A program made the translations under genes and the position numbers. DNA of 64,000 nucleotides from NCBI GenBank assembly GCA_029781975.1, contig JAKOVQ010000017.1, positions 318,074 through 382,073 on the forward strand, written 5' to 3'. This DNA is from Acidobacteriota bacterium. Lineage in GTDB: Bacteria; Acidobacteriota; Thermoanaerobaculia; UBA5066. Shown one piece after another: positions 6,263 through 63,446 of this stretch (the first letter of the stretch is position 1; each line of letters begins with the position of its first letter). The notes under the pieces are model-generated. The model saw nothing but the letters and a program-made list of their open reading frames with translations. It was not told the origin of the DNA and made no database searches.

Positions 6263-6278
6263 TGGCATGTCTCTTGCG
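6263..6278 (+). promoter_or_regulatory. Sigma-54 (-24/-12) promoter for dodecin
   Basis: TGGCATGTCTCTTGCG matches the sigma-54 consensus TGGCAC-N5-TTGCA with correct GG-to-GC spacing; only the final C of the -24 box and the last base differ. The predicted start site is near 6289, just before an AGGAGG ribosome site and the dodecin ATG at 6306, so position, leader length and gene start agree. Confidence 0.65.
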
Positions 6279-7717: not shown

Positions 7718-8326
7718 TCACCGAGGCCGTTCCCCGCTGTCGTCTTCCTCTTCCGTTCCCCGCCTCCTCTCGGCGTTCGTCCCGGCGGCTGTCGGCCGCC
7801 TCGACTCCTTGGGTGCAATCCGGTTGCCATCCCGGCCGAAACGTCCCGGGCCGCCGTTCGTGGCCGAGTGCGCGGCCAGCGCGGCGATGAGGTTCAGGTT
7901 CGCGACGAGGCCCGGGAGGACCCGCTTCCTCACGACCTCCGCCTCGGGCCCATCCAGGTAGCGAAGGGCGGAGAGCGCGCGTTCGACCGAAGAGCGCTCG
8001 CCTTCCCCCAGGGGGCCGAGGGTCTGGGGGCCGTCCTCGATGGCCGCGATCCGCTCGTGGACGCTCGGCCAGGCGCCCGGGTCGCCCGAGAACTCCGAGG
8101 GACGGCCCCCGAGCTGCCGGACCGTCTCGCTCAGCTCGTCCGCGTGCTTGCGGTGGCTCCGGTAGAGGCACCGAAGGGAGAGGGCCGGAGACTCCGAGCC
8201 GTGCTCGACCCGGTGGACGGCCGTCCGGTAGGTCTCGCACGCGGCGAGCTCCGATCGGAGAAGGTTCGAGAGGGCGCTCGCCTCGACGGCCCGGTGGGTG
8301 TTCTGCAGGACTTCGTTCGCTCGCAT
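7718..8326 (-). CDS. DUF2383 / PA2169-like ferritin-fold protein
   Basis: The 202-residue product is mostly helical over residues 1-145, with the pattern of the PA2169/DUF2383 four-helix bundle (LRSELAACETYRTAV, HRKHADELSETVRQLGG, then GEGERSSVERALSAL). The family is ferritin-like and often associated with stress, but its function is not established. Residues 150-202 are a charged, Arg/Glu-rich tail that looks disordered. The start has a strong ribosome site (CCAGGAGGTG). It is transcribed away from the hybrid histidine kinase, with a 236-bp divergent region between them, and ends in a good intrinsic terminator. Confidence 0.7.
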   Translation of the reverse strand: MRANEVLQNTHRAVEASALSNLLRSELAACETYRTAVHRVEHGSESPALSLRCLYRSHRKHADELSETVRQLGGRPSEFSGDPGAWPSVHERIAAIEDGPQTLGPLGEGERSSVERALSALRYLDGPEAEVVRKRVLPGLVANLNLIAALAAHSATNGGPGRFGRDGNRIAPKESRRPTAAGTNAERRRGTEEEDDSGERPR

Positions 8327-8562: not shown

Positions 8563-10380
8563 ATGGCCCTCAGGCTTCGCAAGGAGCCGCTCGTCCTCGC
8601 CCTGGCCGTGGTCGCCGTCCTGGCGAACGCGGCCTTGTCGTTCTGGAACCTGCACCGCCTCGTCGCCGTCCAGCGCGAGGTGAACCGGTCTCACGACCTC
8701 CTCGCCGAGCTCTCCCGTCTCGACGCGACGCTCCGGGACGCGGAGTCGGCGCAGCTGAGGTACCTGACGACCGGCGGGCGGAGCTCGCTCGCGCCGTTCG
8801 AGGCCGCTTCGACCGTGCTGTCGATCCGCCTCGACAGGCTCGTCGACCTCATCGACGGAGAATCCGCCCAGACGACGCGCGTGGGCGACCTGGCACGAGC
8901 CGCCCGGCGGCAGCTGGACGACCTCGCCGACGGGATCCGCCTCTTCCGGGACGGTCGCCGCGACGAGGCCGTGGCCCGAGCGACCGGGACCTCCCCCGGG
9001 GCCGAGGGGAGCCCGGTCCGGTCCGCGGTCGAGAGGGTGGAGGACGCGGAGCGACAGGCCCTCGCCGCACGGGACGCCGAAGCGCGCCGACGCCGGTTCG
9101 TGGCCAGCTTCTCGGGCGTCGTCTCGACCCTGCTCGGCCTCGGCCTCCTCGCCGGGGCGTTCCTCCTCCTGCGGGCGGAGCGCGAGGCCCAGGACCGCGC
9201 TGCCGAGGCGCTGGAGCGCGCGAACATCTGGCTCCGCGACGCGGACCGGCGGAAGGACGAGTTCCTCGTCTCGCTGGCGCACGAGCTCCGCAACCCCCTC
9301 GGGGCGATGAGGACGGCCGTGGAGCTCCTCGCCTCGGCCGAGGAGCCGGGGGACGGCCGCGCGGCCGGGCGCCGCGCCCTGGCGCGGACCGTCCTCTCGC
9401 GCCAGCTCGCCAACCTGACCCGCCTCGTCGACGACCTGCTCGACCTTTCGCGCGTCACGAGCCGGAAGATCGTCCTGAGCAAGGAGCCTCTCCCTCTGAC
9501 CGAGGTGGTCGACGCCGCGCTCGAGACGACGCGGACCGCCCTGGACGCGCGGGGGCTCGAGCTGCGCCGGAGACTTCCCGAAGAGAGCGTCTTCGTCGAG
9601 GGGGACGCCGTTCGGCTGGCGCAGGTGGTCTCGAACCTCCTCTCGAACGCGGCCCGCTACTGCCCCGAGGGGGGGCACGTCGACCTCGAGATCGCCGCCG
9701 ACGAGGTGGAGGCGGTCCTGAGGGTCACGGACGACGGGATCGGGCTCGCGCCCGAGGACCTGGAGCGCGTCTTCGGCCTCTTCGAGCAGGTCCCGTCCAC
9801 GACGAAGGCGCAGGCGGGAGGCGGCCTCGGGGTCGGCCTGGCGCTCGCGCGCCGGATCGCCCAGCTGCACGGAGGGAGCCTCACCGCCTCGAGCCCGGGT
9901 CCGGGCCGGGGAAGCACGTTCACGCTCCGGCTGCCGCGCGCGGCGGCGCCGCCGGCAGCGGCGCCCGCCCCTCACCTCCCGGTCCCGCGCCGGCCGGCCG
10001 CCGAGCCGCGACGGGTCCTCGTCGTCGACGACGACGTCGACGGGGCCCGCGCGCTCGCCGAGCTCCTGACGATGTCGGGACACGACGTGGAGGTCGCCTC
10101 CGACGGCCCGTCGGCGCTCGAGGCGGCTCGACGCACCCGCCCCGACGCGGTCGTCCTCGACCTCGGGCTCCCGGGCCTCGACGGCTACGAGGTGGCGAAC
10201 GGGATCCGGGCCGAGGAGTCCCTCGCCGGGACCCTCGTCGTGGCGCTCTCCGGGTGGGCCGGGCTCGCCGACCGCCTCCGGTCGGCCGAGGCGGGGATCG
10301 ACCACCACCTCGTCAAGCCGGTCGGCCCCGGCGTCCTGGAAGAGCTCCTCGCGACGGCTACCCGGCGTCCCAGGACCTGA
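8563..10380 (+). CDS. Hybrid histidine kinase with CHASE3-like sensor and receiver domain
   Basis: The 605-residue product has a first membrane segment (about 8-26), a periplasmic helical sensor of CHASE3 type (about 27-170), a second membrane segment (about 180-200), and a HisKA domain with phospho-acceptor His in SLAHELRNPLGAM. A HATPase domain follows (NLLSNAARY, DDGIGL, GGGLGVGLALA), then a C-terminal receiver (about 485-600) with VVDDDVDG, phospho-acceptor Asp in VVLDLGLPG, and Lys in HHLVKP. ATG 8563 is preferred over GTG 8545 because GGGAGAAG precedes it. Its last 23 bp overlap tail to tail with the sigma-54 regulator on the other strand. The two could be one signalling system, but that is inference. 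Confidence 0.9.
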   Translation: MALRLRKEPLVLALAVVAVLANAALSFWNLHRLVAVQREVNRSHDLLAELSRLDATLRDAESAQLRYLTTGGRSSLAPFEAASTVLSIRLDRLVDLIDGESAQTTRVGDLARAARRQLDDLADGIRLFRDGRRDEAVARATGTSPGAEGSPVRSAVERVEDAERQALAARDAEARRRRFVASFSGVVSTLLGLGLLAGAFLLLRAEREAQDRAAEALERANIWLRDADRRKDEFLVSLAHELRNPLGAMRTAVELLASAEEPGDGRAAGRRALARTVLSRQLANLTRLVDDLLDLSRVTSRKIVLSKEPLPLTEVVDAALETTRTALDARGLELRRRLPEESVFVEGDAVRLAQVVSNLLSNAARYCPEGGHVDLEIAADEVEAVLRVTDDGIGLAPEDLERVFGLFEQVPSTTKAQAGGGLGVGLALARRIAQLHGGSLTASSPGPGRGSTFTLRLPRAAAPPAAAPAPHLPVPRRPAAEPRRVLVVDDDVDGARALAELLTMSGHDVEVASDGPSALEAARRTRPDAVVLDLGLPGLDGYEVANGIRAEESLAGTLVVALSGWAGLADRLRSAEAGIDHHLVKPVGPGVLEELLATATRRPRT

Positions 10381-11710
10381 TCTTGTTGTAGATCGTCTTC
10401 AGGGAGATCCCGAGGACCTCGGCCGCGGCACGCTTGTCTCCCCCCACGGCGGCGATCGTCGCCTCGATCAGCTTTCGCTCGGCGGCCCGGACGGTGTCCC
10501 CGACCCGCACGGGGACGGCGAGCGCGCCGTCGCCCCCGGCGGCCCCGCCGGGAGGGATCGGGGCCGGCGCCGAGAGGACCGCCTCGGCAGCCTCGAGGGA
10601 GACCGCGGGCGGGTCGGAGAGGACGTAGGCCCGGTGGACCGCGTTCCGGAGCTCGCGGACGTTGCCGGGCCAGACGTGCCGGGAGAAGGCCTCCAGGGCC
10701 TCGGCCTCGAACCCCGCGATCCCGCGCCCCTCGTCGGCCTCGATCCGCGCCAGGAACGCCCGCGACAGCACCGGGACGTCGCCGAGCCTCTCGCGCAGCG
10801 GGGGGAGCCGGAGGGGAAAGACGGCGAGCCGGTAGTAGAGGTCCTCGCGCAGCGCGCCGCCGGCGACCGCCTCGAGGAGGTCGCGGTTCGAGCTCGCCAC
10901 GACCCTCACGTCCACGTCCCTCTCCTCGGCGCCGCCCACGCGGCGGAAGGTCCGGGTCTCGAGCACCCGAAGGAGCTTCACCTGCATCTCGAGGGGCATC
11001 TCGGTGACCTCGTCGAGGAAGAGCGTCCCGCGGCGGGCCAGCTCGAAGGTCCCCTCCCGGCGGCGCTCGGCCCCGGTGAACGCCCCCTTCTCGTGCCCGA
11101 AGAGCTCGCTCTCGACGAGGCTCGGGCTGAGAGCGCCGCAGTTGACGCCGACGAAGGGGCCGGCGGCACGGCGAGAGAGGGAGTGGAGGGTCCGCGCCGC
11201 GACCTCCTTCCCGGTGCCGCTCTCGCCGTAGAGGAAGACGGGGGCGTCGGACGCCGCGACCCTCGCCAGGAGCCGCGTCACGTTCTGGATCGCCTCCGAG
11301 CTCCCCAGGATCTCCCCCAGCGCCTCGGCCTCAGCGCGGTCCGGCGCGGCCGCGGGGCGCGCCGGCCTCTCGCCCAGGTGCTCGAGCGCGGCCAGGAGCT
11401 GCTGGGGGCGGAGGGGCTTGACGAGGAAGTCGTGGGCGCCCGCCTTCATCGCGTCGACCGCCGTCCGGACGGAGCCTTGCCCCGTCAGGACCAGGACGGC
11501 GGTCCCGCCGGGCGCGCTCCTGACGACGTCGAGGCCGTCGCCATCGGGAAGGCCGAGGTCGACCAGGGCCACGTCGGGGGGCGCCCTGCGATACGCGGCC
11601 GTCGCCTCCGCGACGCTCCCCGCCCCCTCCGTCTCGTGCCCGAGCCCGGCGAGGAGCTCCATCAGCGCCTCGCGCGTCCCCGGGTCGTCCTCGACGACGA
11701 GGGCCTTCAT
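10358..11710 (-). CDS. NtrC-family sigma-54-dependent response regulator
   Basis: The 450-residue product has a receiver domain (1-120; VEDDPGTRE, phospho-acceptor in ALVDLGLPD, Lys in FLVKPLRP), a sigma-54 AAA+ domain (about 140-370; Walker A GESGTGKE, the sigma-54-contacting GAFTGA loop, Walker B GTLFLDE) and a Fis-type HTH (about 405-445; KRAAAEVLGISLKTIYNKI). It should activate sigma-54 promoters when phosphorylated. The start is the ATG at 11710, which overlaps the stop of the upstream kinase-like gene as ATGA, so the two are translationally coupled. Candidate targets with -24/-12 promoters occur within this window (dodecin, both TonB receptors), but no direct link is visible. Confidence 0.93.
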   Translation of the reverse strand: MKALVVEDDPGTREALMELLAGLGHETEGAGSVAEATAAYRRAPPDVALVDLGLPDGDGLDVVRSAPGGTAVLVLTGQGSVRTAVDAMKAGAHDFLVKPLRPQQLLAALEHLGERPARPAAAPDRAEAEALGEILGSSEAIQNVTRLLARVAASDAPVFLYGESGTGKEVAARTLHSLSRRAAGPFVGVNCGALSPSLVESELFGHEKGAFTGAERRREGTFELARRGTLFLDEVTEMPLEMQVKLLRVLETRTFRRVGGAEERDVDVRVVASSNRDLLEAVAGGALREDLYYRLAVFPLRLPPLRERLGDVPVLSRAFLARIEADEGRGIAGFEAEALEAFSRHVWPGNVRELRNAVHRAYVLSDPPAVSLEAAEAVLSAPAPIPPGGAAGGDGALAVPVRVGDTVRAAERKLIEATIAAVGGDKRAAAEVLGISLKTIYNKIRSWDAG

Positions 11711-12318
11711 CGCCTTCCCCCTGCGTGCGGCCACGACAGGGTGGCCTCCAGGCCATCGCTCCCGGCGGAGAGGCCGAGCGATCCGCCGTCGGCGGCCAGG
11801 GCGGCCCGCGCGAGGAAGAGCTCCTCGGCGCCCCGCTCGGCGGGCGGCAGGAGGAGGAGCCTCTCCACCGGTCCCTCGGGGACGGGGCCGAGACGGGAGA
11901 CGAGGATCCGCGCGGCCCCGGCCGCCCGCGGGACGCTCGCCCGGGGGGAGCCCCCCCTGGCGCGCCCGAACGCCATCACCCTCCGGACGGCATCTGCAGC
12001 GGCTGCCGGGCGGGCCTGGACGACGACCGCCCCGTCGCCGCCGCCCTCCGGAAGGAGGCCGTCCAGCCGGACGGGCTGCGGAGCCTCCTCGTCGAGCGCC
12101 GCGAGGGTCACCAGGAGGTCGAGAAGGCGGCCGGCCTCGGCCAGGTCGCCCGCGATCTCCGCGGTCCGCGTCGAGAGGCCCGGGGCCTCCCGGGCGACGT
12201 GCGCGCGGAGGACCTCGACCCTCACGGCCGCAGCCGAAAGCGGGCGCGCCAGCGCGTGCCGGAGGACCGAGAGGACCGGAGGGGCGGAGGCCATGCGATG
12301 AAGGTACCAGCGTTCCAC
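11707..12318 (-). CDS. Short histidine-kinase-like protein coupled to the sigma-54 regulator
   Basis: This 203-residue soluble protein looks like the core of a histidine kinase reduced to essentials. Near the N-terminus RHALARPLSAAAVRVEVL resembles an H-box (His at about 21), and GSLGLSAGSDGLEATLSWP resembles the closing strand of HATPase domains. The N, G1 and G2 boxes that hold ATP are not recognisable, so it may be a phosphotransfer or anti-kinase partner rather than an active kinase. It starts at GTG 12318 or ATG 12294; neither has a strong ribosome site. The stop overlaps the regulator start by 4 nt, implying a fixed functional pairing. The gene is certain; the biochemical role is not. 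Confidence 0.6.
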   Translation of the reverse strand: MERWYLHRMASAPPVLSVLRHALARPLSAAAVRVEVLRAHVAREAPGLSTRTAEIAGDLAEAGRLLDLLVTLAALDEEAPQPVRLDGLLPEGGGDGAVVVQARPAAAADAVRRVMAFGRARGGSPRASVPRAAGAARILVSRLGPVPEGPVERLLLLPPAERGAEELFLARAALAADGGSLGLSAGSDGLEATLSWPHAGGRR

Positions 12319-19251: not shown

Positions 19252-19284
19252 ATCCAACATTTCGAAGCGATATCCAACGTTTCG
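19252..19284. promoter_or_regulatory. Tandem 13-mer repeat upstream of TonB receptor 1 (candidate activator site)
   Basis: ATCCAACATTTCG (19252-19264) and ATCCAACGTTTCG (19272-19284) are direct repeats 20 bp apart, about two helical turns. The second copy starts 87 bp upstream of the -24 box. A related sequence, ATCCAAACTTTTTCGG, starts 88 bp upstream of the -24 box of the paralogous receptor. Position and repetition suggest an enhancer site for a sigma-54 activator. Confidence 0.5.
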
Positions 19285-19341
19285 GCGCCCATCGATCCGC
19301 GAACCTCTCGGGTAGCTCGTAAGTGCTTGTCCTGGGCCAAC

Positions 19342-19364
19342 GTGCCATCACGAGCTCATGGCAC
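19342..19364. promoter_or_regulatory. Inverted repeat overlapping the -24 box of TonB receptor 1
   Basis: GTGCCAT (19342-19348) and ATGGCAC (19358-19364) form a 7-bp inverted repeat with 9 bp between the arms. The right arm contains the -24 element, so a protein bound here could block the promoter. Confidence 0.4.
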
Positions 19365-19374
19365 AACGCGTGCT
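19359..19374 (+). promoter_or_regulatory. Sigma-54-type promoter of TonB receptor 1
   Basis: TGGCACAACGCGTGCT has a perfect -24 box and a -12 box (GTGCT) with the invariant GC at correct spacing. It lies 84 bp before the ATG, and the paralogous receptor has the same element 86 bp before its ATG. A TAAAGT hexamer at 19373-19378 could instead serve as a sigma-70 -10; only the -24/-12 reading is conserved between paralogs. Confidence 0.6.
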
Positions 19375-19457
19375 AAAGTCCCTGCGATTCTTTTCTTTTT
19401 CTAAGGGCTGGATTCGGGTTTCCTTAACGTCAACCAGAAGCACATGGAGGAGACCGC

Positions 19458-22418
19458 ATGGTGCGCATCGGTATCCGGATACTCGCGCTCGTCGTCGTCG
19501 TGGCGACGAGCCTCACCGCCCTCTCCCAGGGCATCACGAACTCGGCGCTCCGCGGACGCGTCACGAACGAGGGCGCCGGCCTCCCCGGGGTCACGGTCGA
19601 GGTCTCCTCGCCGATCCTCCAGGGGACCCGGACGGCCTTCACCTCGTCGAACGGCGACTACGTCTTCGCCGCCCTCCCCCCCGGCCCCTACAAGGTCACC
19701 TTCAAGCTCCAGGGGTTCGAGACCGTCACCAAGAACGCGAACCTCGCCACAGCCCAGCAGGCCACGGTCGACGCCGCGATGAACCTCGCCGGCGTGGCGG
19801 CCGCCGCCACGGTCGTCGCGACCGCCGAGACGGTCTCCACGACGACGCAGTCGTCGACGACCATCACCTCCGACGTCACGCAGAAGCTCCCGGTCGCCCG
19901 GACGATCATCTCGGCCGTCGACCTCTCCTCCGGCATCAGCCGGACCGGTCCGAGCGGCAACGTGACGATCTCCGGTGCGGTCTCCTTCGACAACGTCTTC
20001 ACCGTCGACGGCGCCGTCATCCAGGACAACCTCCGCGCGACGCCGTACAACCTCTTCATCGAGGACGCCGTCCAGGAGACGACCACCTCCGTCTCGGCGG
20101 TCTCCGCCGAGTTCGGGCGGTTCACGGGCGGGGTCGTCAACACCGTGACGAAGTCGGGCGGGAACACCTTCTCGGGCTCCTTCCGGACGACGCTCACGAA
20201 CGACGCCTGGTCCGCCATCACTCCCAGCAATGAGATCCGGACCCAGAAGGTCAACCCGACCTACGAGGCGACCCTCGGCGGCTTCATCCTCAAGGACCAC
20301 ATCTGGTTCTTCGGGTCGGGCCGGTTCCAGAAGACCACGGGGTCGGGCCAGCTCGCCTATACCAAGATCCCGGTCCCGACGGGCAACGACGAGAAGCGCT
20401 ACCAGGGCAAGCTGACGATCTCGCCGTTCCAGAACCACTCCATCACCGGGAACTACCTCAAGGTGACCCAGGAGCAGTCGGGGTACGTCTTCCCGGCCTT
20501 CTCGAGCGTCCTCGACCTCGACAGCGTCATCACGAGGCAGCTCCCGCAGGACATCCTCACCCTCAACTACAACGGCGTCGTCACCTCGAGCTTCTTCGTG
20601 GAGGCCCTCTACTCCAACCGGCACTTCACGTTCGAGAACTCGGGCTCCCGCTACACCGACCTGATCAAGGGGACGATCATCCGCGACCGATCGAGGGGGA
20701 ACGCCCGTTACAACTCCCCCACTTTCTGCGGCGTCTGCGACCCGGAGGAGCGGAACAACCGCGACTACCTGATCAAGGGAACCTACTTCCTCTCCACCGG
20801 CAGCCTCGGCTCGCACAACATCGTCTTCGGCTACGACAACTACGCGGGAACGCGGAAGGCGAACAACTACCAGTCGGGAAGCAACTACCGCCTCTTCGCG
20901 AGCTCCACCATCATCCAGGGTACCGATCTCTTCCCGGTGGTGGACAACAGATCCTACATCTACTACACGCCGATCAGCACCCTCAGCCAGGGGAGCGACG
21001 CCCTCACGCACTCGGTCTTCGTCAACGACGCGTGGCGAGTCAACGACCGGCTCTCTGTCAACCTCGGCGTCCGCTGGGACAAGAACGCGGCCAAGGACAG
21101 CCGGGGCGTCACGACCGCAGACGACAGCGCGTTCAGCCCCCGCCTGGCCGCCTCCTACGACGTGACGGGCAAGGGGAACCTCAAGGTCGCCGCCAGCTAT
21201 GCCAAGTACATCGGCGGCATCCAGGAAAGCCAGCTCGACTCCACTTCCAACGCCGGCCAGCCCGGCCTCCTCTACTGGTTCTACGCGGGCGACCCCCTCA
21301 ACGTGAACGTCCCCGCCGGCCAGCCGCTCCTCACCCGGGCAGAGGTCCTGACGAGAGTCTTCGACTGGTTCTTCGCCCAGGGCTGCCCGAACCTTACGAC
21401 GTGCAAGCTCCCCCTGGCGTACGGATACGTTCCCGGCCTCAGCGCCACGATCAAGGACACGCTGAAGTCTCCCTACGCTGACGAGTTCACGGTCGGAGTC
21501 AGCGGAAACGTCGCCAACAAGCTCGCGTATCGCGTCGACTTCGTCCGCCGGAAGTTCGGTGACTTCTACAACGTCGTGCGCAACACCACGACGGGTCAGA
21601 CCACCGACGGACTCGGCACTTACTTCGACCTCGGAATCGTCAACAACACGAACAGCGTCGAGCGGAACTACACCGCCATGCAGACGCAGCTCTCCTACCG
21701 GATGCCAGGCCTCAACGTAGGCGCCAACTGGACCTGGTCGCACACCCTCGGCAACTTCGACGGCGAGAACGCCACGAGCGGTCCGATCCAGAACTCGACC
21801 GAGAGCTACCCCGAGTACAAGGCCTTCGCGAACAACAACCCGTACGGGTCGCTCGCCACCGACCAGCGGCACCGCGTCCGCCTCTGGGCGGTCTGGGACG
21901 TGCCGTTCCTCCCGAAGGCCGCGGGCGCGATGAGCCTCAGCGTCGTCCAGGCGCTCGAGACCGGGCTCGCTTACGGCGCCGTCGGCTCCGTCCGCTCACG
22001 GAACTACATCACAAACCCGGGCTACAGCACTCCTCCGTCGAGCGTCACCTACTACTTCACCGCACGCGACGCCTTCCGGACGTCGGACATCTCCCGGACC
22101 GATCTCGGCCTGAACTACTCGTTCCGGATCGCCGACACGGTCGAGATCTTCCTGCAACCTCAGGTGATCAACCTCTTCAACAACCAGGGCCTCGTCGGCG
22201 TCGACACGACGGTCCAGACCGCCGTCTCGCCCGGGGGGGCGCAGAACTCCTACCTCAACTTCAACCCGTTTACCGACACGCCCGTCCAGCGGCCGCACGG
22301 CGACACGTCGGTAAAGACCGCCAACTGGGACTACGGCCCGAACTTCGGCAGGGCCCGGAGCGCCGCGGACTTCCAGCAGCCCCGGACGTTCCTGATGTCC
22401 CTGGGCCTGCGCTTCTAG
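19458..22418 (+). CDS. Oar-like TonB-dependent outer membrane receptor 1
   Basis: The 986-residue product has a signal peptide (1-24). A carboxypeptidase-regulatory-like beta sandwich (about 28-110; ALRGRVTNEGAGLPGV, NGDYVFAALPPGPYKV) precedes a plug domain (about 120-240; VPARTIIS-like segment, FTVDGAVIQDN, EFGRFTGGVVNTVTKSGGN) and a large beta barrel ending MSLGLRF, the terminal aromatic expected for outer membrane insertion. It probably imports oligosaccharides, peptides or other large nutrients using TonB energy; the ligand is unknown. Two cysteine pairs (FCGVC, and GCPNLTTC) are conserved with the paralog at 24920. The ATG follows TGGAGGAGA. A strong intrinsic terminator follows. Confidence 0.93.
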   Translation: MVRIGIRILALVVVVATSLTALSQGITNSALRGRVTNEGAGLPGVTVEVSSPILQGTRTAFTSSNGDYVFAALPPGPYKVTFKLQGFETVTKNANLATAQQATVDAAMNLAGVAAAATVVATAETVSTTTQSSTTITSDVTQKLPVARTIISAVDLSSGISRTGPSGNVTISGAVSFDNVFTVDGAVIQDNLRATPYNLFIEDAVQETTTSVSAVSAEFGRFTGGVVNTVTKSGGNTFSGSFRTTLTNDAWSAITPSNEIRTQKVNPTYEATLGGFILKDHIWFFGSGRFQKTTGSGQLAYTKIPVPTGNDEKRYQGKLTISPFQNHSITGNYLKVTQEQSGYVFPAFSSVLDLDSVITRQLPQDILTLNYNGVVTSSFFVEALYSNRHFTFENSGSRYTDLIKGTIIRDRSRGNARYNSPTFCGVCDPEERNNRDYLIKGTYFLSTGSLGSHNIVFGYDNYAGTRKANNYQSGSNYRLFASSTIIQGTDLFPVVDNRSYIYYTPISTLSQGSDALTHSVFVNDAWRVNDRLSVNLGVRWDKNAAKDSRGVTTADDSAFSPRLAASYDVTGKGNLKVAASYAKYIGGIQESQLDSTSNAGQPGLLYWFYAGDPLNVNVPAGQPLLTRAEVLTRVFDWFFAQGCPNLTTCKLPLAYGYVPGLSATIKDTLKSPYADEFTVGVSGNVANKLAYRVDFVRRKFGDFYNVVRNTTTGQTTDGLGTYFDLGIVNNTNSVERNYTAMQTQLSYRMPGLNVGANWTWSHTLGNFDGENATSGPIQNSTESYPEYKAFANNNPYGSLATDQRHRVRLWAVWDVPFLPKAAGAMSLSVVQALETGLAYGAVGSVRSRNYITNPGYSTPPSSVTYYFTARDAFRTSDISRTDLGLNYSFRIADTVEIFLQPQVINLFNNQGLVGVDTTVQTAVSPGGAQNSYLNFNPFTDTPVQRPHGDTSVKTANWDYGPNFGRARSAADFQQPRTFLMSLGLRF

Positions 22419-22442
22419 GCACGTTTCCGATCCGATCCGAGA

Positions 22443-22477
22443 GGAGCCGGGGCTCGTCCCCGGCTCCTTTCCTTTTT
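22443..22477 (+). terminator. Intrinsic terminator of TonB receptor 1
   Basis: A perfect 10-bp stem (GGAGCCGGGG / CCCCGGCTCC) with loop CTCGT is followed by TTTCCTTTTT, 24 bp after the stop. The paralogous receptor ends with nearly the same hairpin, so the terminator was duplicated with the gene. Confidence 0.93.
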
Positions 22478-22489
22478 GGGTGGCTGAGG

Positions 22490-22495
22490 TACCCT
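22490..22495 (+). promoter_or_regulatory. -10-like hexamer, possible leaderless promoter of the sulfatase-fold gene
   Basis: TACCCT ends six bases before the GTG start, placing the predicted transcription start at or next to the start codon. There is no ribosome site between them. Confidence 0.35.
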
Positions 22496-22501
22496 CCGCG
22501 C

Positions 22502-24712
22502 GTGCCAACGCCCGGCCGCGCCACCCTCCGGCTCCCCCTCCCCCGTCCCGCAGCCGCGGCCGCCCTCCTCGCGGCCGCGCTGCTCCCTGCCGGCTGCGGC
22601 AAGGGCCGGACTTCGGCCGAGACGTTCCCGAAGGCGCCGGTGGTCCTGATCAGCGTCGACACGCTCCGGTCCGACCACCTTCCCGCCTACGGCTACACGA
22701 AGGTCGAGACACCCGCGATCGACGCCCTGCGGAAGGACTCCGTCCTGTTCCAGCGGGCCTACTCCCACGTCCCGCTCACCCTCCCGTCCCACGTCACCCT
22801 GATGACGGGGCGGATGCCCGGCGCGACCGGCGTCCACGACAACCTCGGCTACACGATCCGAAAGGACGTCCCGACGCTCGCGGAGCTCCTGAAAGCCGAT
22901 GGCTACGCGACCGGAGGGGCCGTCTCCTGCTACGTCCTCAAGGGCGACACCGGGATGGCGCGCGGCTTCGACCTCTACGACGACCACGTGGAGGCCGCCG
23001 AGGCGCAACAGGCCCTCGGCCGCGTCCAGCGTGCCGGCGACGCCACCGAGGCGCGCCTCGCGGCGTGGATCGAGGAGCGAAAGGCGGGCGAGCCCTTCTT
23101 CGCCTTCCTCCACCTCTACGAGCCCCACACGCCCTACGAGCCCCCCGAGCCCTGGAAGAGCCGTTTCGCCGACCCCTACGACGGCGAGATCGCCACGGCC
23201 GACGCGATCGTCGGCCGCTTCCTCGACCTCCTGAAGAGGAAGGGGCTCTACGACGGGTCGCTCGTCGTCTTCCTCTCCGACCACGGCGAGGGGCTCGGCG
23301 AGCACGGCGAGTCGGAGCACGGCATGTTCCTCTACCGCGAGGCGCTCCAGGTGCCGCTGCTGGTGAAGCTGCCGGGATCCCGCCGGGCCGGCTCCTCGGT
23401 CGCGGCGCCCGTGGGTCTCTCCGACGTCTTCACCACCGTCGCCCGCGCCGTGGCGCTCCCCCGCTTCGAGGCCCCCGAGGGGACGGCCTCCCTCCTCGAC
23501 GTCGCGGCCGACCCGGCTCCGGCCGACCGCCGCCTCCTCGCCGAGACCTTCTTCCCGAGGATCCACTTCGGGTGGAGCGAGCTGTCGTCCCTCCTCGAGG
23601 GGCGGTGGCACTACATCGAGGCGCCGAGGCCCGAGATCTACGACGTCGTCGCGGATCCGGCTGAGACCTCCAACCGGGTCGCCGAGAAGCCCGGACCGAT
23701 GCGCGCGCTCCGCGCGGAGCTCCTGAAGCGGCGTTCCCCCCTCGAGGTACCGACGGACGTCGACCCCGAAGCCCGGAAGAAGCTCGCCTCGCTCGGCTAC
23801 CTGAGCGCCGGCCCCTCGTCCGCCGACGGGACGCTCGAGGACCCGAAGGACCGGATCAAGACCTTCGAGATGCTCCGCGTCGGGATGGGCGACGCGAGCG
23901 GCGGTCGGATCGACCAGGCGCTCGCCGTCTTCAAGAAGCTCCTCGACGAGAACCCGCGAATGCTCGACGTCTGGGACACCTACTCCGAGACGCTGCTCAA
24001 GGCCGGCCGGGCCGACGAGGCGCTCGCGGCGCTCAAGAAGACGGTCGAGCTCGCCCCGGAGGCGGCCCGGGCTCCGTACCTCGTCCAGGTCGCCAACCTC
24101 TGCCTCCAGCTCGGGAAGTGGGACGAGGCGGAGAAGCACGCCGAGGCGGTCCGCGCCTACGGGGACCCGGCCGCCGACGACATCCTCGCCCGGGCCGCTC
24201 TCGGCAAGGGCGACGTCTCCGCCGCCGAGGCCGCCGCCCGCGCCTCGCTGGCGAGCGGAGAGGGGAACGCGCGGGTCCGCGCCACCCTGGTCCTCGGAAG
24301 GCTCGCCATCCGCCGCGGGGACGTCGCGGGGGCCCGCGCGTACGCCGACCAGGCCCTCCATCTCGCCGAGGGGGAGAAGTTCGTCCAGTCGGGACTCCAC
24401 ATGCTGCGCGGGGACGTCCTCGCGCGGCAGGGGCAGATCGCCGACGCGGAGAAGGAATTCCTCGAGGAGGTCCGCCTCTACCCGGGGCGCCTCGACGCGC
24501 AGGTCTCGCTGGCGACGCTCTACGCGTCGGCCGGACGGCGCGAGGACGCCCGGCGCGTCCTCGTCGCCCTCGTCTCCCGCGAGCCGACGCCCGACGCGTT
24601 CCTCCTCGCGATACGGACCGCGCGCGTCACGGAGGACGTGCAGGGTGAGCGCGAGCTCGTGAAGGAGGCCCGGCGGCTCTTCCCGCGCGACAAGCGATTC
24701 GCCGGCGGCTGA
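22502..24712 (+). CDS. Sulfatase/alkaline-phosphatase-fold lipoprotein with TPR tail
   Basis: The 736-residue product starts with a lipoprotein signal (PAGC, Cys at about 34). A sulfatase-like domain follows (about 46-400) with metal ligands in ISVDTLRSDH and FLSDHGEGLGEHGE. The nucleophile position reads LTLPSHVTLMTG, so the CxPSR formylglycine signature is absent and Thr is the likely nucleophile, as in related phosphoesterases. Residues about 435-735 are TPR-like helical repeats (IDQALAVFKKLLDENPRM, ADEALAALKKTVELAP, VRATLVLGRLAIRRGDV). The start is GTG. It lies between two TonB receptors, which suggests processing of the same extracellular substrate. True sulfatase activity is doubtful. 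Confidence 0.82.
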   Translation: MPTPGRATLRLPLPRPAAAAALLAAALLPAGCGKGRTSAETFPKAPVVLISVDTLRSDHLPAYGYTKVETPAIDALRKDSVLFQRAYSHVPLTLPSHVTLMTGRMPGATGVHDNLGYTIRKDVPTLAELLKADGYATGGAVSCYVLKGDTGMARGFDLYDDHVEAAEAQQALGRVQRAGDATEARLAAWIEERKAGEPFFAFLHLYEPHTPYEPPEPWKSRFADPYDGEIATADAIVGRFLDLLKRKGLYDGSLVVFLSDHGEGLGEHGESEHGMFLYREALQVPLLVKLPGSRRAGSSVAAPVGLSDVFTTVARAVALPRFEAPEGTASLLDVAADPAPADRRLLAETFFPRIHFGWSELSSLLEGRWHYIEAPRPEIYDVVADPAETSNRVAEKPGPMRALRAELLKRRSPLEVPTDVDPEARKKLASLGYLSAGPSSADGTLEDPKDRIKTFEMLRVGMGDASGGRIDQALAVFKKLLDENPRMLDVWDTYSETLLKAGRADEALAALKKTVELAPEAARAPYLVQVANLCLQLGKWDEAEKHAEAVRAYGDPAADDILARAALGKGDVSAAEAAARASLASGEGNARVRATLVLGRLAIRRGDVAGARAYADQALHLAEGEKFVQSGLHMLRGDVLARQGQIADAEKEFLEEVRLYPGRLDAQVSLATLYASAGRREDARRVLVALVSREPTPDAFLLAIRTARVTEDVQGERELVKEARRLFPRDKRFAGG

Positions 24713-24730
24713 TCCGGAAAACCGCACCCG

Positions 24731-24746
24731 ATCCAAACTTTTTCGG
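24731..24746. promoter_or_regulatory. ATCCAA-type element upstream of TonB receptor 2
   Basis: ATCCAAACTTTTTCGG resembles the tandem element before receptor 1 and starts 88 bp upstream of this promoter's -24 box (87 bp in receptor 1). Only one copy is present here, and it is two bases longer in the middle. Confidence 0.4.
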
Positions 24747-24818
24747 ACCCCCTCCGGACGAACGCCGCGCTCCTGAGGACGAGGGACCCGCCTTCGCGGA
24801 CGACGCTTCTCGCACGCG

Positions 24819-24834
24819 TGGCACGAGCCCTGCT
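24819..24834 (+). promoter_or_regulatory. Sigma-54-type promoter of TonB receptor 2
   Basis: TGGCACGAGCCCTGCT has a perfect -24 box and CTGCT as -12 box with correct spacing, 86 bp before the ATG. The match in sequence and distance with receptor 1 supports a real promoter. No competing -10 hexamer is seen here. Confidence 0.62.
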
Positions 24835-24919: not shown

Positions 24920-27841
24920 ATGGTGCGCATCGTTCTTCGCGCGCTGGCACTCGCCGTCCTCGTGACGACCGGGGCCACCGCCCTCTGCCAGTCGATCACG
25001 ACCTCGGCCCTCCGCGGGCGGGTGACCAACGACGGACAGGGACTCCCCGGCGTCTCCGTCGAGGTCGCGTCGCCCGCCCTGCAGGGGACCCGGACGGCGT
25101 TCACGTCGACCAACGGCGACTACGTCTTCGCGGCCCTCCCTCCCGGCGGCTACACGGTCACCTTCAAGCTTCAGGGGTTCGAGACGCTCACCCGCCAGGC
25201 GAACCTCTCGACGGCCCAGCAGGCCACGGTGGACGCCGTGATGAACGTCGCTGGCGTCGCCGCGGCCGCAACGGTCGTGGCAACCGCAGAGACGGTCTCC
25301 ACGACGACGCAGGCGTCGACGACCATCACCTCCGACGTCACGCAGAAGCTGCCGGTGGCGCGGACGATCATCTCGGCGGTCGACCTCTCCTCCGGCATCA
25401 GCCGGACGGGTCCGGCCGGGAACGTGACGATCTCCGGGGCGCAGTCGTTCGACAACGTCTTCACGGTCGACGGGGCGGTCATCCAGGACAACCTCCGCTC
25501 CACGCCGTACAACCTCTTCATCGAGGACGCCGTTCAGGAGACGACCACCTCCGTCTCGGCGGTCTCGGCCGAGTTCGGTCGCTTCACGGGCGGCGTCGTG
25601 AATACGGTGACGAAATCGGGCGGGAACGTCTTCTCCGGGTCCTTCCGGTCCACCCTGACGAACGACGCGTGGTCGGCAATCACCCCCGGGAACGAGAAGC
25701 GCGTCCAGAAGGTCAACCCGCGCTACGAGGCGACACTCGGCGGGTTCGTCCTGAAGGACCACATCTGGTTCTTCGGCTCCGGCCGGTTCGAGAAGACCAC
25801 CGGCTCGGCCCAGACGGGCTTCACGAACGTCTCGTTCGAGACCGGCAACGACGAGAAGCGGTACCAGGGGAAGCTGACCGTCACGCCCTTCCAGAACCAC
25901 TCCGTCACCGGGACCTACATGAAGGTCGACACGACGCAGTCGGGATACGTCTTCCCCGACGCCGCTCACGTCATGGACCTCGACAGCGTCGTCACGAGGG
26001 ACCTCCCCCAGGACATCCTCACCGTCAACTACAACGGCGTCCTCTCGTCGAGCTTCTTCGTGGAGGCCCTCTACTCCAGCCGGCACTTCACCTTCGAGAA
26101 CGCGGGCTCCCTCTACACGGACCTGATCAAGGGGACCCTCATGCGCGACGAGTCGCGCGGCAACGCACGCTACAACTCCCCCACCTTCTGCGGTGTCTGC
26201 GACCCGGAGAAGCGGGACAACCGCGACTACCTGGTCAAGGGGACCTGGTTCCTCTCCACCGGGAGCCTCGGCTCGCACAACGTCGTCTTCGGCTACGACA
26301 ACTTCGCCGGCCAGCGGAAGGCGAACAACTACCAGTCGGGGAGCAACTACCGGCTCTTCACGACGTCGGCCATCCTCCAGGGGGGCGACATCTTCCCCGT
26401 GATCGACTCGAGCTCCTACGTCTACTACACGCCGATCGAGAGGCTCAGCCAGGGGACCGACACGCTGACCCACTCGCTCTTCGTCAACGACGCGTGGCGC
26501 GTGAACGACCGGCTGTCCGTGAACCTCGGCCTGAGGTGGGACAAGAACGACGCCAAGGACAGCCGCGGGGTCACCACCGCCGACGACAGCGCGTTCAGCC
26601 CCCGCCTGGCGGCCTCCTACGACGTGACCGGCAAGGGGAACCTCAAGGTCGCCGCGAGCTACGCTCGCTACATCGGCGGAATCCAGGACAACCTCGTCGA
26701 CTCCGCCTCGAACGCCGGGTCGCCGGGAGTCCTCTACTGGTTCTACGGGGGGCCCGAGATCAACGTGAACCCGGCCGCCGGCCAGCCGCTCACGACCCGC
26801 GCGGAGGCCCTGCAGACCGTCTTCGACTGGTTCTTCGCCCAGGGGTGCCCGAACCTGACGACCTGCAAGCTGCCGCTCGCCTACGCGTTCGTCCCCGGGC
26901 TCAGCTCGCAGATACGGGACACCATCAAGTCGCCCTATGCCGACGAGCTCACGTTCGGGGTGAGCGGGAACGTCGGGAACAGCCTCGCCTACCGCGTCGA
27001 CCTCGTCCGCCGGAAATTCGGCGACTTCTACAACACCGTCCGGAACACCTCGACGGGGCAGGTGGACGACGGATTCGGGAATTACTTCGACGTCGGGATC
27101 GTCGGCAACACGAACGGCCTCGAGCGGAACTACACCGCCCTTCAGGCTCAGCTCTCGTACCGGATGCCCGGCCTGAACGTCGGCGCCAACTGGACCTGGT
27201 CGCACACCCTCGGCAACTTCGACGGCGAGACCTCGAACAGCGGCCCGGTCTCGGCGGCCGTCGACAGCTACCCCGAGTACAAGGCCTTCGCCCAGTACAA
27301 CCCGTCCGGCTCGCTGGCAACCGACCAGCGGCACCGCGTCCGCATCTGGGCGGCCTGGGACGTGCCGTTCCTGCCGCGGTCGGCCGGCGCGCTGAGCCTC
27401 AGCCTCGTCCAGGGCTTCGAGACGGGAACCCCCTACGGCGCCGTCGGAGCCGTCCGATCGAAGGCCTACGTCCCCGACCTCGGCTACGCCACGCCCCCGT
27501 CCAGCGTCACCTACTACTACACCGCCCGCGACGCCTACCGGACCGACGACATCTCCCGGACCGACCTCGGCCTGAACTACTCCTTCCGGATCGCCGACAC
27601 CGTCGAGCTCTTCCTCCAGCCCCAGGTCGTCAACGCATTCAACAACCAGGGGGTCGTGACCGTCGACACCACCGTCCGCTCCCGGGCGACCTCGGCCGCC
27701 TACAAGGACTTCAATCCCTTCACGGAGGCTCCGGTCCAGGGAGTCAACTGGGACTACGGCCCGAGCTTCGGGAAGGCCCGGAGCGCGAACGACTACCAGC
27801 AGCCCCGGACGTTCCTGATGTCGCTGGGTCTGCGCTTCTGA
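24920..27841 (+). CDS. Oar-like TonB-dependent outer membrane receptor 2
   Basis: The 973-residue paralog of the receptor at 19458 has the same order: signal peptide, carboxypeptidase-regulatory-like domain, plug and beta barrel ending MSLGLRF. Long stretches of the plug are nearly identical (TSDVTQKLPVARTIISAVDL); extracellular loops and the region after VYTPIERLSQ differ more. Both cysteine pairs (FCGVC, GCPNLTTC) are kept. The ATG at 24920 has a strong GAAGGAGA site and gives the same MVRI start as receptor 1; the frame upstream to 24818 runs through the promoter and is not coding. Duplication with loop divergence suggests related but distinct ligands. Confidence 0.93.
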   Translation: MVRIVLRALALAVLVTTGATALCQSITTSALRGRVTNDGQGLPGVSVEVASPALQGTRTAFTSTNGDYVFAALPPGGYTVTFKLQGFETLTRQANLSTAQQATVDAVMNVAGVAAAATVVATAETVSTTTQASTTITSDVTQKLPVARTIISAVDLSSGISRTGPAGNVTISGAQSFDNVFTVDGAVIQDNLRSTPYNLFIEDAVQETTTSVSAVSAEFGRFTGGVVNTVTKSGGNVFSGSFRSTLTNDAWSAITPGNEKRVQKVNPRYEATLGGFVLKDHIWFFGSGRFEKTTGSAQTGFTNVSFETGNDEKRYQGKLTVTPFQNHSVTGTYMKVDTTQSGYVFPDAAHVMDLDSVVTRDLPQDILTVNYNGVLSSSFFVEALYSSRHFTFENAGSLYTDLIKGTLMRDESRGNARYNSPTFCGVCDPEKRDNRDYLVKGTWFLSTGSLGSHNVVFGYDNFAGQRKANNYQSGSNYRLFTTSAILQGGDIFPVIDSSSYVYYTPIERLSQGTDTLTHSLFVNDAWRVNDRLSVNLGLRWDKNDAKDSRGVTTADDSAFSPRLAASYDVTGKGNLKVAASYARYIGGIQDNLVDSASNAGSPGVLYWFYGGPEINVNPAAGQPLTTRAEALQTVFDWFFAQGCPNLTTCKLPLAYAFVPGLSSQIRDTIKSPYADELTFGVSGNVGNSLAYRVDLVRRKFGDFYNTVRNTSTGQVDDGFGNYFDVGIVGNTNGLERNYTALQAQLSYRMPGLNVGANWTWSHTLGNFDGETSNSGPVSAAVDSYPEYKAFAQYNPSGSLATDQRHRVRIWAAWDVPFLPRSAGALSLSLVQGFETGTPYGAVGAVRSKAYVPDLGYATPPSSVTYYYTARDAYRTDDISRTDLGLNYSFRIADTVELFLQPQVVNAFNNQGVVTVDTTVRSRATSAAYKDFNPFTEAPVQGVNWDYGPSFGKARSANDYQQPRTFLMSLGLRF

Positions 27842-59796: not shown

Positions 59797-62700
59797 GTGA
59801 CATCATTCCTCCCCGACATGCAGAGCCGGCCCGTCACGAGGCGCCCGCGCGCCGCGCTCGTTCTCCATCTGCTCGTTCTCGCCCGGCTGGCGATCCCCGG
59901 ATGGGCCGCGACCGCCGCCGCGCCGGCTGGCCCGGTGTTCGAGGGGAAGTCGGTCTTCCGCGCGTACGGCGAGGAGGACGGGCTCGGGAGCCCGACCGTC
60001 ACCGTCCTCTTCCAGGACCGCGCCGGGTTCCTCTGGGTCGGGACGTGGGAAGGGCTCTTCCGGTTCGACGGCCGGCGCTTCGCCCGGTTCGACCGCGACG
60101 ACGGGCTCCCGAGCGCGAGCGTCACGGCGATCGGGCAGCGGAAGGACGGGCGGCTCTACGTCGGGACGCGCCGTGGCCTCGCCCGGTGGAACGGCACGGG
60201 GTTCGTCGCGCTCGGGAAGAAGGAGGGGCTCCCCGAGGACGCAGCCGTCATGCCGGGCGGGATCGCGTCGGACGCCTCGGGGACGCTCCTCGTGGGAACG
60301 GCGCGCGGCCTCTACCAGAGCATCTCGGAGATCTTCGCCCTCGACGGGCGGCGGGACGGCCCGGAGGTCCCGGTCTCCTGGCTCGACGTCGCCGCCGACG
60401 GCACCCTCTCCTACGCCCGTGGCCACCTCCTCTACCGCCGCGAGAACGGGGCGACGCGCGAGGCGGGGAGCCGGCTCGGCCTTCCCCCGCTCGAGAGGAT
60501 CGACGCCCTGAGGAGCGGCGCCGACGGGGCGCTCTGGCTCAGGACGCCGGACCGCCTCTTCGTCCTCGCGAAGGGCTCGGCCCGATTCGACGACGTCACC
60601 GCGGGGCTCCCCCCCTCCTCGGGGATCGGCGGGCTCTCGTTCGACTCGGCCGGGCGGCTCCTCGTCCCGACCCTTCGGGGGCTCGCGATCCGGAGCGAGA
60701 CGGGCTGGACCGCCGTCGGGACCCGCGAGGGGCTGGAGATCGAGACGGTCTCCGCCGCCCTCGAGGACCGCGAGCAGGGGCTCTGGCTCGGCCTGCCGGG
60801 GATCGGGCTCGTCGTCCGGCTCGGCCGCGGGCGCGTCAGCGCCTGGGACCGGAGCGTCGGCCTTCCCGACGACACCGTCTGGGCGGTGACGCGGGAGCGC
60901 GCCGCGGCGCGGGAAGGGGCGGCCCCTGAAGGCATTGGGCCCGGAGGGGGCGGGGCGCTCTGGGTCGGGACGCAAGGGGGACTGGCGCGCCTTGCCCCGG
61001 ACGGGTCGGTCCGAACGGTCCTCCCGGGGGTCCCCGTCTTCGCCCTCGCGGCGGGCCCGGACGGATCCATCTGGGCGGGGGCCGCCCCGGGAGGGGTCCT
61101 CCGGATCGCGGGACCCGGCGCGCCCCGCGCCGTTCCCCTCGCAGGCGTCGCAGCCCGCGACGCCAGGGTCTGGGCGCTCCACGTCCGGGCGGACGGCGAA
61201 GTCTGGGCAGGCACGAGCGACGGCGTCTACCGCCTTCCGCCGCGGGCCGCCTCGTTCGAGAGGGTCGTCCTCCCGGAGAAGTTCGAGGGGGACGCCGTCT
61301 TCGGCCTTGCCGAGGACGGGAACGGGACCGTCTGGGGCGCCGGCCGGTTCGGCCTCATCCGCCTGACCGGCTCCGCGATCCAACGGTTCGGCAAGCGCCA
61401 GGGGCTCGCGTCCGACTTCCTCTCCTCCGTTCTCGCGTTGCCGGACGGCCGCCTCGCCGTGAGCTACCGGGAGGCCCCCGGCGCCGACCTCGTGAGGGTC
61501 GAGAGGGGGCGGCTCACCGTGACGGCCCTCGACCCGGCGACCTCCTCCGCGGCCCGGCGGATCGTCTTCCTCGGGCTGGACGCCTCCGGCGCGATCTGGA
61601 CCGGAGGCGCGGGGGTGGACGTCTTCCGCGAGGGAAAGGAGCCGATCCGGTTCGGCCACTCGGACGGCCTCGTCAGCCGGGACGTCACCCAGAACTCGTT
61701 CTACGCCGAAGGTGATGGGACCGTCTGGTTCGGAACGAACCGCGGCCTCGTGAGGATCCGCCCGTCCCCCGAACCGCCCCACCCGCCACTGACGACGGTG
61801 ATCCTCGGAGCGCGGGCCGGGTCGCGGGCGCTCCCGACGGACGGCTCGGCCAGCCTCCTTCCGGGAGAGCGCGACCTGTCGCTTTCGTGGGCGGGGCTCT
61901 CCTTCGCCCACGCGGAGCGGATGCGGTACCGCTACACGGTGACCGGGCTGTCCGGGGGCGCCGTCGAGACGACGGCCTCCGAGGCGACGCTGGCAGGCCT
62001 CCGGGCCGGCAGCTACAGGTTCGAGGTCGCGGCGATTCCCGCGCCAGGGACCCCTCCCGGTCCGCCCGCGGTCTTCTCGTTCACCGTCGAGCCCCTCCTC
62101 CTCGAGAGCTGGTGGACCCGAGGGCTCCTCCTCCTCCTCGCCGGTACCGGCGCCGTCCTCCTCTTCCGGGCGCGGACCCGCGCCGTGGCCGCCGAGCGCG
62201 ACGCGCTGAGAGCCGCCCTCGAGCGGAAGGAGGCCGAGCTCGTCCAGGCGGGACGCCGGCTGGAGGAGGCGGCCATCACCGACGCCCTCACCGGCATCAG
62301 GACCCGCCACTTCCTCTCCGCCGCCATCCAGCCCGAGGTGGAGCGGGCCCTTCGCGCCCACGCGACGTTCGCGACGGCGGGCGAGCGCTCCGGGGGCGGC
62401 CTCCTCTTCGTCCGGATCGACCTCGACGGCCTCGACGCCCTCGACGCCCGGCTGGGCGACCCTGCGGGCGACGCCGTCCTCGTCGAGACCGCCCGGCGGC
62501 TGAAGGCCGTCGTCCGCGCCTCCGACTTCCTGGTGAGGTGGGACCGCGCGGGCTTCCTCGTCGTGACCCGCCTCACCGACCGGTCCGGAGGGAGCGTCGT
62601 CGCACGGAAGCTCCTCGGCGCCGTCCGTGGGGAGCCGGTGCCGCTCCCGGAGGGCGGTCCTCACCGGCAGACGGCGTCGATCGGATGGACCCCCTTCCCG

Positions 62701-62925
62701 TGGTTCGTGGACGCCCCCTCGGCCATCCCGTTCGAGACTCTCCTCGCCGCGGCGGGGCTGGCGTCCGCCAAGGCGAAGACCCGAGGGGGGGACCGGGCGA
62801 TCGGCCTCGTCCCCGGCGGGGTCTCCGGGGCGGGTGCCCCCGAAGCGCGCGAGGCCCTTTCGGCTCCCTTCTCCGCTCCCGGCGCCGGGGCGGTCGAGGT
62901 CGTCGAGACCGGGCCGGCCGGGTGA
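59797..62925 (+). CDS. Propeller-sensor membrane protein with degenerate GGDEF domain
   Basis: The 1042-residue product (GTG 59797, or ATG 59818) has a signal segment (about 15-38), a periplasmic two-component-regulator propeller of repeats such as FLWVGTWEGLFRFDGRRF and ALWVGTQGGLARLAPDGS (about 50-660), a Y_Y_Y-type Ig-like domain (about 690-765; LSWAGLSFAHAERMRYRYTVTG), a membrane helix (about 771-790) and a short coiled coil. The GGDEF-like domain (about 825-1005) opens with ITDALTGIRTRHFL. The signature position reads RWDRAGFLVV instead of RxGGDEFLVL, so cyclase activity is probably lost, but the inhibitory RxxD (RASD) just before is kept. It may act as a c-di-GMP effector. Confidence 0.88.
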   Translation: MTSFLPDMQSRPVTRRPRAALVLHLLVLARLAIPGWAATAAAPAGPVFEGKSVFRAYGEEDGLGSPTVTVLFQDRAGFLWVGTWEGLFRFDGRRFARFDRDDGLPSASVTAIGQRKDGRLYVGTRRGLARWNGTGFVALGKKEGLPEDAAVMPGGIASDASGTLLVGTARGLYQSISEIFALDGRRDGPEVPVSWLDVAADGTLSYARGHLLYRRENGATREAGSRLGLPPLERIDALRSGADGALWLRTPDRLFVLAKGSARFDDVTAGLPPSSGIGGLSFDSAGRLLVPTLRGLAIRSETGWTAVGTREGLEIETVSAALEDREQGLWLGLPGIGLVVRLGRGRVSAWDRSVGLPDDTVWAVTRERAAAREGAAPEGIGPGGGGALWVGTQGGLARLAPDGSVRTVLPGVPVFALAAGPDGSIWAGAAPGGVLRIAGPGAPRAVPLAGVAARDARVWALHVRADGEVWAGTSDGVYRLPPRAASFERVVLPEKFEGDAVFGLAEDGNGTVWGAGRFGLIRLTGSAIQRFGKRQGLASDFLSSVLALPDGRLAVSYREAPGADLVRVERGRLTVTALDPATSSAARRIVFLGLDASGAIWTGGAGVDVFREGKEPIRFGHSDGLVSRDVTQNSFYAEGDGTVWFGTNRGLVRIRPSPEPPHPPLTTVILGARAGSRALPTDGSASLLPGERDLSLSWAGLSFAHAERMRYRYTVTGLSGGAVETTASEATLAGLRAGSYRFEVAAIPAPGTPPGPPAVFSFTVEPLLLESWWTRGLLLLLAGTGAVLLFRARTRAVAAERDALRAALERKEAELVQAGRRLEEAAITDALTGIRTRHFLSAAIQPEVERALRAHATFATAGERSGGGLLFVRIDLDGLDALDARLGDPAGDAVLVETARRLKAVVRASDFLVRWDRAGFLVVTRLTDRSGGSVVARKLLGAVRGEPVPLPEGGPHRQTASIGWTPFPWFVDAPSAIPFETLLAAAGLASAKAKTRGGDRAIGLVPGGVSGAGAPEAREALSAPFSAPGAGAVEVVETGPAG

Positions 62926-63058
62926 GGAGGAGTCACACCATTTCGTGTACCAAGCAACCCAGGTGGTCTATTCCCTCCCCGGCCCGGCCCGCCCCGGCGT
63001 CGGAGGAGCGCCGCGAGCGCCCCTTCCGGCGGACGGAGGACCTGGCACCCTTCTTGAG

Positions 63059-63064
63059 TAGACT
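63059..63064 (+). promoter_or_regulatory. -10 element TAGACT of the cytochrome gene
   Basis: TAGACT lies 46 nt before the ATG, predicting a leader of about 40 nt. A TGGCAC-N5-TTGAG sequence just upstream (63043-63058) resembles a -24/-12 element, but its -12 box lacks the invariant GC. Confidence 0.5.
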
Positions 63065-63110
63065 TTGCCGGTCCCGCACCGGGACCTGAGAGAGAAGGGG
63101 GAAGTTCCAG

Positions 63111-63368
63111 ATGAAGAAGACCACCGCCGCGGTCGCCGCCGTTCTCGCCACCCTCGCCTTCGGCAGCAGCTCCCTCGCCACGATGGAGTACTACAAGGAG
63201 TACAAGGCCAAGGACGCCAAGGCCACCTGCCAGTCGTGCCACGTCGAGAAGATGCCGAAGAAGGAGGCCCACGAGCTGAACGACTTCGGCAAGAAGGTCC
63301 AGGCCGCCAAGGGGAAGGACAACAAGATCGACTGGGCGAAGGTCCCCGCCGCCGAGAAGAAGGGCTGA
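63111..63368 (+). CDS. Small periplasmic mono-haem c-type cytochrome
   Basis: The 85-residue product has a signal peptide (1-23, hydrophobic VAAVLATLAFGSSSLA) and a single CxxCH haem motif in ATCQSCHVEKMPKK, leaving a mature protein of about 62 residues rich in Lys. A downstream Met (KMPKK) is a possible axial ligand. It may carry electrons between periplasmic enzymes such as the molybdenum hydroxylase, but no partner is adjacent. GAAGGGGGAAG precedes the ATG and a strong terminator follows, so it is a single-gene transcript. It does not match a well-named cytochrome family that I recognise. Confidence 0.82.
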   Translation: MKKTTAAVAAVLATLAFGSSSLATMEYYKEYKAKDAKATCQSCHVEKMPKKEAHELNDFGKKVQAAKGKDNKIDWAKVPAAEKKG

Positions 63369-63407
63369 GCCTCTCTCACCCCTGACGCCGGGCTCCCCCG
63401 GCGCTCC

Positions 63408-63446
63408 GCGCCCCCGGGGCCTCCCCCCGGGGGCGCTTCGTCTTTC
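63408..63446 (+). terminator. Terminator after the cytochrome gene
   Basis: A 12-bp GC stem (GCGCCCCCGGGG / CCCCGGGGGCGC) with loop CCTCC is followed by TTCGTCTTTC. It stands between the cytochrome and the convergent oxidoreductase, and can act on both strands. Confidence 0.8.

Follow-up and report, generated by a model that had tools for sequence, protein, structure and literature searches.

TonB receptors are the main route of large substrates across the outer membrane. Their synthesis is usually controlled by Fur, by ECF sigma/anti-sigma pairs or by hybrid two-component systems. The control proposed here would likewise answer to an environmental signal, but through an NtrC-type activator and sigma-54. 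The closest described systems in that respect are NtrB/NtrC, AtoS/AtoC and ZraS/ZraR, in which a regulator with receiver, AAA+ and Fis HTH domains (a bEBP) lies behind a sensor kinase, dyads occur tens of bp 5' of a -24/-12 promoter, and the system's own promoter carries a site. The two-component system considered below shares these features and differs in that its predicted targets are TonB receptors and its regulator falls under every named equivalog cut-off tried.

Oar of Myxococcus xanthus is a TonB-dependent transporter needed for secretion of the protease PopC (PMC6434023), and the two receptors studied here resemble it, by domains only, in having CarboxypepD_reg and a TonB-type barrel. 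A matrix-based prediction of sigma-54 regulons across phyla, published in 2025, included TonB itself (COG0810) in Flavobacteriia; the target there is TonB, unlike the TonB receptors found here, the passages dealing with it name no activator, and the main text of the article lacks the string "Acidobacteri" (PMC12316311). In the open-access literature, no account of sigma-54/RpoN-controlled TonB receptors in Acidobacteriota was found, and NtrC-type/sigma-54 control of TonB receptors is not described in the literature searched.

Two Oar-Like Receptors Behind -24/-12 Sites

The DNA analysed, called the window, is a stretch of 64 kb on contig C15 of a 5.37-Mb genome. It contains two Oar-like TonB-dependent receptor genes on the forward strand, R1 (19458..22418, 986 aa; Pfam CarboxypepD_reg, OMP_b-brl_4 and TonB_dep_Rec_b-barrel) and R2 (24920..27841, 973 aa; CarboxypepD_reg and OMP_b-brl_4/TonB-receptor barrel), whose proteins are 79% identical. 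Both exceed the Pfam cut-offs for PF13620, PF25183 and PF00593, corresponding to an N-terminal CarboxypepD_reg domain and a TonB-type barrel, and neither has a Pfam match to the Plug domain at E 0.001. A sulfatase-domain protein with TPR repeats (22502..24712, forward strand, 736 aa; Pfam) is encoded between them. Relatives with this receptor family are Acidobacteriota MAGs, many under the label Thermoanaerobaculia. The receptors presumably serve in uptake.

Before R1 lies the -24/-12 site TGGCACAACGCGTGCT (19359..19374, forward strand, matrix score 15.3) and before R2 the site TGGCACGAGCCCTGCT (24819..24834, forward strand, 16.3). Each has the GG and GC dinucleotides at standard spacing and a TGGCAC-type -24 box, and the window has no further perfect match to TGGCAC-N6-TGCT. 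The motif ends 83 bp 5' of the R1 ATG (19458) and 85 bp 5' of the R2 ATG (24920), where the original prediction had located it; its distances of 84 and 86 bp differ by one base of counting. An inverted repeat, GTGCCAT-N9-ATGGCAC, occupies window positions 19342-19365, and its right arm contains the R1 -24 box.

When one mismatch was allowed, three matches were found in the window against 1.11 expected from shuffles, which taken alone is weak proof of the two sites. The motif is rare across the genome, with 13 matches to TGGCAC-N6-TGCW against 53 for the reversed pattern, and 18 to TGGCA-N7-TGCW with a leading non-A base against 140 for the control. These genome-wide searches used patterns, and matrix scans covered the window, the loci and the homologue upstream regions; the sigma-54 matrix was built from general knowledge of the consensus instead of a published table and is approximate. 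The genome has one copy of rpoN (Sigma54_DBD, E 1.1e-64), adjoined by lptB- and hpf-like genes as in the usual lptB-rpoN-hpf-hprK order.

It is recurrence in relatives that argues against chance for the R1 and R2 sites. A first set comprised the 260 bp upstream of 63 homologues (R1, R2, a paralogue on contig C4 and 60 from relatives), where scores were bimodal and 17 regions reached at least 11 on the forward strand, compared with none on the reverse strand and 0.49 in shuffles. A second set (n = 43), drawn from another collection and freed of 31 duplicates, gave 20 forward and no reverse sites at that score, and 24 forward and two reverse at a score of at least 9. Gene starts were assigned by rule, being match-derived in the first set and moved to the nearest in-frame ATG in the second. 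The idea that the motif is enriched before paralogous receptors thus survived a check across relatives, although homologues share descent and these counts do not represent independent events. The two receptor sites are probably real sigma-54 promoters. For later work, 41 promoters scoring at least 9 in either set (17 + 24) were taken as positives.

In many homologues the 260 bp examined contain no strong site. Within the genome, the third close paralogue (50% identity, contig C4) lacks a strong site, as do most of the distant receptor paralogues, so sigma-54 control is not universal. No known leader RNA was recognised in 20 upstream loci, for which Rfam gave only three matches, all far under the gathering scores. 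Sigma-54-positive leaders such as L083, L089 and L090 have an additional ribosome-binding-like sequence, GGAAAGGAGG or one much like it, 74-123 nt before the start codon, with no obvious start codon after it; it occurs in 14 of 37 such leaders, compared with 0.7 in shuffles, and in 12 of 65 upstream regions lacking a sigma-54 site. At the corresponding place the R2 leader has only GGGAGG, near 24840.

A Shared Dyad Upstream of the Receptor Promoters

The words ATCCAA and ATGTCCGG were enriched 5' of the -24 box in the 41 positive promoters, and a 16-bp dyad, RTYCRR-N4-YYGRAY, is common to sigma-54-positive receptor promoters, usually as two copies about 20 bp apart. A first EM search, seeded with the motif as spotted by eye and scored on the promoters from which it was trained, gave a log-likelihood of 186 (29 ± 4 in shuffles). 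The dyad was present in 34 of the 41 promoters, against 4.85 in shuffles and none in 23 distal regions (300-700 bp upstream); the other seven promoters lack it. Because of that seeding and scoring, the search was repeated with seeds from 15 promoters, R1 and R2 excluded. The same motif was recovered; of 24 held-out promoters 18 had a match, of 20 distal regions none. Copies are very often paired and start near -75 and -54. To our knowledge, the dyad matches no published site.

For R1, the upstream copy ATCCAACATTTCGAAG (19252..19267, no strand assigned to any of these dyads) starts 107 bp before TGGCAC and is the best of the window with both matrices (16.3, and 15.1 with the matrix free of R1 and R2). 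A second, poorer copy, ATCCAACGTTTCGGCG (19272..19287, matrix 7.6), lies 20 bp downstream of the first and shows a direct repeat of that copy's left half. The upstream copy for R2, ATCCGGAAAACCGCAC (24712..24727), likewise starts 107 bp before TGGCAC and is second best in the window at 12.5; with the R1/R2-free matrix it scores 10.2, which is not outstanding, several unrelated places scoring equally. Its irregular companion ATCCAAACTTTTTCGG (24731..24746), under the matrix threshold, has an ATCCAA half-site at -88 and a displaced right half. The poorer copies of the two genes thus stand at -87/-88, and the dyads of R2 are imperfect where that of R1 is clear. The original prediction had considered the remaining upstream DNA of the receptors unlike; this was wrong, as both share the dyad at the same offset, -107. 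Its proposal that both are under sigma-54 control is well supported by the recurrence of the promoter before homologues in many genomes together with this shared, activator-type dyad.

Elsewhere in the same genome (G000), a receptor about 32% identical (contig C25:46123, locus L019) has a dyad scoring 17.2, placed 100 bp before the weaker -24/-12 site AGGCAAGGTTTTTGCG (9.4). It may belong to the regulon as a third receptor.

The Kinase/Regulator Operon Marked by the Dyad

The genome encodes about 36 activators of the NtrC type. Of 79 loci, only one had an activator gene beside the receptor, so gene position gives no clue to the activator. A pattern defined by DNA only (a dyad at -75 plus TGGC-N8-TGCW) gave, in 149 genomes of the class, ten sites against three for the reversed control, of which six precede Oar-like receptors (several already in the homologue sets) and four precede one kinase-gene family. 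All four stand before a gene for a long membrane protein; on the three contigs with enough DNA, this protein is a sensor kinase and the next gene encodes an NtrC-type regulator whose HTH is of the same kind. Over 396 genomes of the phylum, nine candidate matches lay outside the class against one for the reversed pattern there, counted by the DNA pattern alone. The activator L250 of the relative G042 was considered because the close relative G036 lacks it, and was rejected; its true orthologues occur in three other genomes only, a mismatch with the promoters.

The corresponding kinase/regulator pair of the genome itself is on contig C10, off the contig of the window. The kinase is a membrane sensor kinase with TM, GAF, PAS, HisKA and HATPase regions, and with a PDZ domain in a relative. 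The regulator (62277-63629) has receiver, sigma-54 AAA+ and Fis HTH domains, and its loop reads GSFTGA, against GAFTGA in three aligned relatives. Its scores against NCBIfam equivalogs were all under the cut-off (ntrC, 427 of 559; AtoC, 423 of 714; PEP-CTERM regulator, 356 of 503), and NCBIfam and Pfam gave no specific name for either protein.

For 40 orthologues of the regulator, 4.2 kb of upstream DNA was taken, 37 of these stretches extending beyond the kinase start. With a matrix trained on receptors only, 41 dyad matches scoring at least 12 fell within kinase-promoter segments (660 bp each, 24.4 kb), spread over 25 of the 37 genomes; the other 132.5 kb gave no match. The limits of the segments were chosen after the match positions had been viewed, and the zero is partly a product of that choice, but the clustering near the kinase start was plain before any limits were set. 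The R1/R2-free matrix, at a cut-off of 11, gave 37 matches inside and nine outside. Forward -24/-12 sites numbered 13 inside and five outside, with none on the reverse strand. At other activator loci the dyad was found nowhere in 104.6 kb of the own genome and once in 104.6 kb from two relatives.

The operon on contig C10 has a dyad (14.7) next to TGGCACCTGCTTTGCC. There, and in five relatives of the same family or order, a dyad lies directly against the kinase operon's -24 box (-19). Such a position is more typical of repression than of activation and would be consistent with the regulator repressing its own operon. In G042, two dyads precede the kinase and no clear -24/-12 site was seen there; on contig C50 of that genome (L318:2570-2615), the dyad ahead of the kinase gene and a sigma-70-like promoter, TTGCGG-N16-TACAAT, overlap, an arrangement compatible with operon repression.

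Of 61 genomes, 57 have a clear orthologue of the regulator (>600 bits, next best 534), and because it is nearly universal its phylogenetic profile has little discriminating power. Two relatives of one genus (G001 and G007) have receptors without strong -24/-12 sites and also lack a clear orthologue. The regulator is kept even in genomes without any receptor past the 1e-100 cut, and must therefore have other roles or more distant targets there.

Other sigma-54-like sites examined in the genome have no dyad, bar one weak distant match. On contig C15 (498808-516750; loci L230-L235 and L219), strong sigma-54-like sites cluster around an NtrC-type regulator and precede small genes, named from reading their translations as CsbD-like, a short membrane peptide and a lipoprotein. 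The receptor dyad is absent from this cluster apart from that one weak distant match, and the cluster appears to be a distinct sigma-54 regulon, perhaps related to stress. Within the window, strong -24/-12-like sites also occur at 6263-6278 (forward, 13.8) and 7814-7829 (reverse, 14.1), near an NtrC-type regulator gene at 10358..11716 (reverse strand; receiver, sigma-54 AAA+ and Fis HTH by Pfam; about 452 aa from a likely internal-Met start) whose recognition helix resembles that of L219.

Proposed Mechanism and Alternatives

What the DNA shows directly is the promoters, the dyad with its repeated occurrence, and the same dyad at the kinase operon. We infer from them dyad binding, activation and the direction of autoregulation. 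RNA polymerase with sigma-54 would transcribe R1 and R2 from the sites at 19359 and 24819. An NtrC-family response regulator would bind the tandem 16-bp dyads about 50-110 bp upstream, on one helical face, and its dimers, about two helical turns apart, would loop to the polymerase and open the promoter through ATP hydrolysis. This regulator is most likely the contig C10 gene, predicted to be co-transcribed with the membrane sensor kinase, and the system may control itself, because the promoter of this operon has both the dyad and a -24/-12 site. We put the probability that this type of two-component system activates sigma-54 transcription of the Oar-like receptors and of itself at roughly three in four.

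The regulator gene at 10358, which the original prediction had favoured as the activator, has the appropriate domains and lies 7.7 kb from R1. No dyad was found near it in the scan of the window, the dyad marking the different operon on contig C10 instead; activator genes elsewhere are almost never linked to receptors, and its recognition helix, SLKTIYNK, matches that of L219, which is set among unrelated sigma-54 promoters without the dyad. A role for this gene through closeness to R1 is thus highly improbable. A different doubt concerns the promoters themselves: R1 and R2 are close paralogues and could have inherited a shared but idle site from a recent duplication, or matched the consensus by chance, with transcription starting from a sigma-70 promoter such as TAAAGT before R1. 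The weak shuffle test of the window and the lack of a strong site before most homologues agree with this. Strand-specific enrichment in two homologue sets, with upstream DNA too diverged for alignment, and co-occurrence of the -24/-12 site with the dyad at fixed spacing make it very unlikely.

The promoters and the dyad could also be real and the dyad at the receptors bound by another NtrC-type regulator, the kinase operon being simply a further target. There are some 36 such regulators to choose from, and where the dyad stands at -19 before the kinase, as in this genome and several f1-family relatives, it need not be an activator site for the operon's own product. Against this, the dyad marks that operon in most of the genomes compared (25/37), the loci of other activators are almost free of it (one match in 209 kb), and the simplest explanation is that the regulator controls the operon that encodes it, so this alternative is considered unlikely. 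The preferred reading is activation by the C10-type regulator. Its extension to the class, in which an Oar-like TonB receptor family throughout the Thermoanaerobaculia is transcribed with sigma-54 under a two-component system that controls itself and has a dyad operator of its own, is held a little less firmly, as a reasonable expectation.

Implications

The Acidobacteriota have many TonB receptors, and there is almost no knowledge of when these are made. If the proposal is true, a switch would be named for a largely uncultured class, together with the DNA site and the type of promoter that belong to it. The signal would become testable, since the cue perceived by the kinase should reveal the substrate taken in by the receptors, and the dyad matrix could be used to read further targets from metagenomes.
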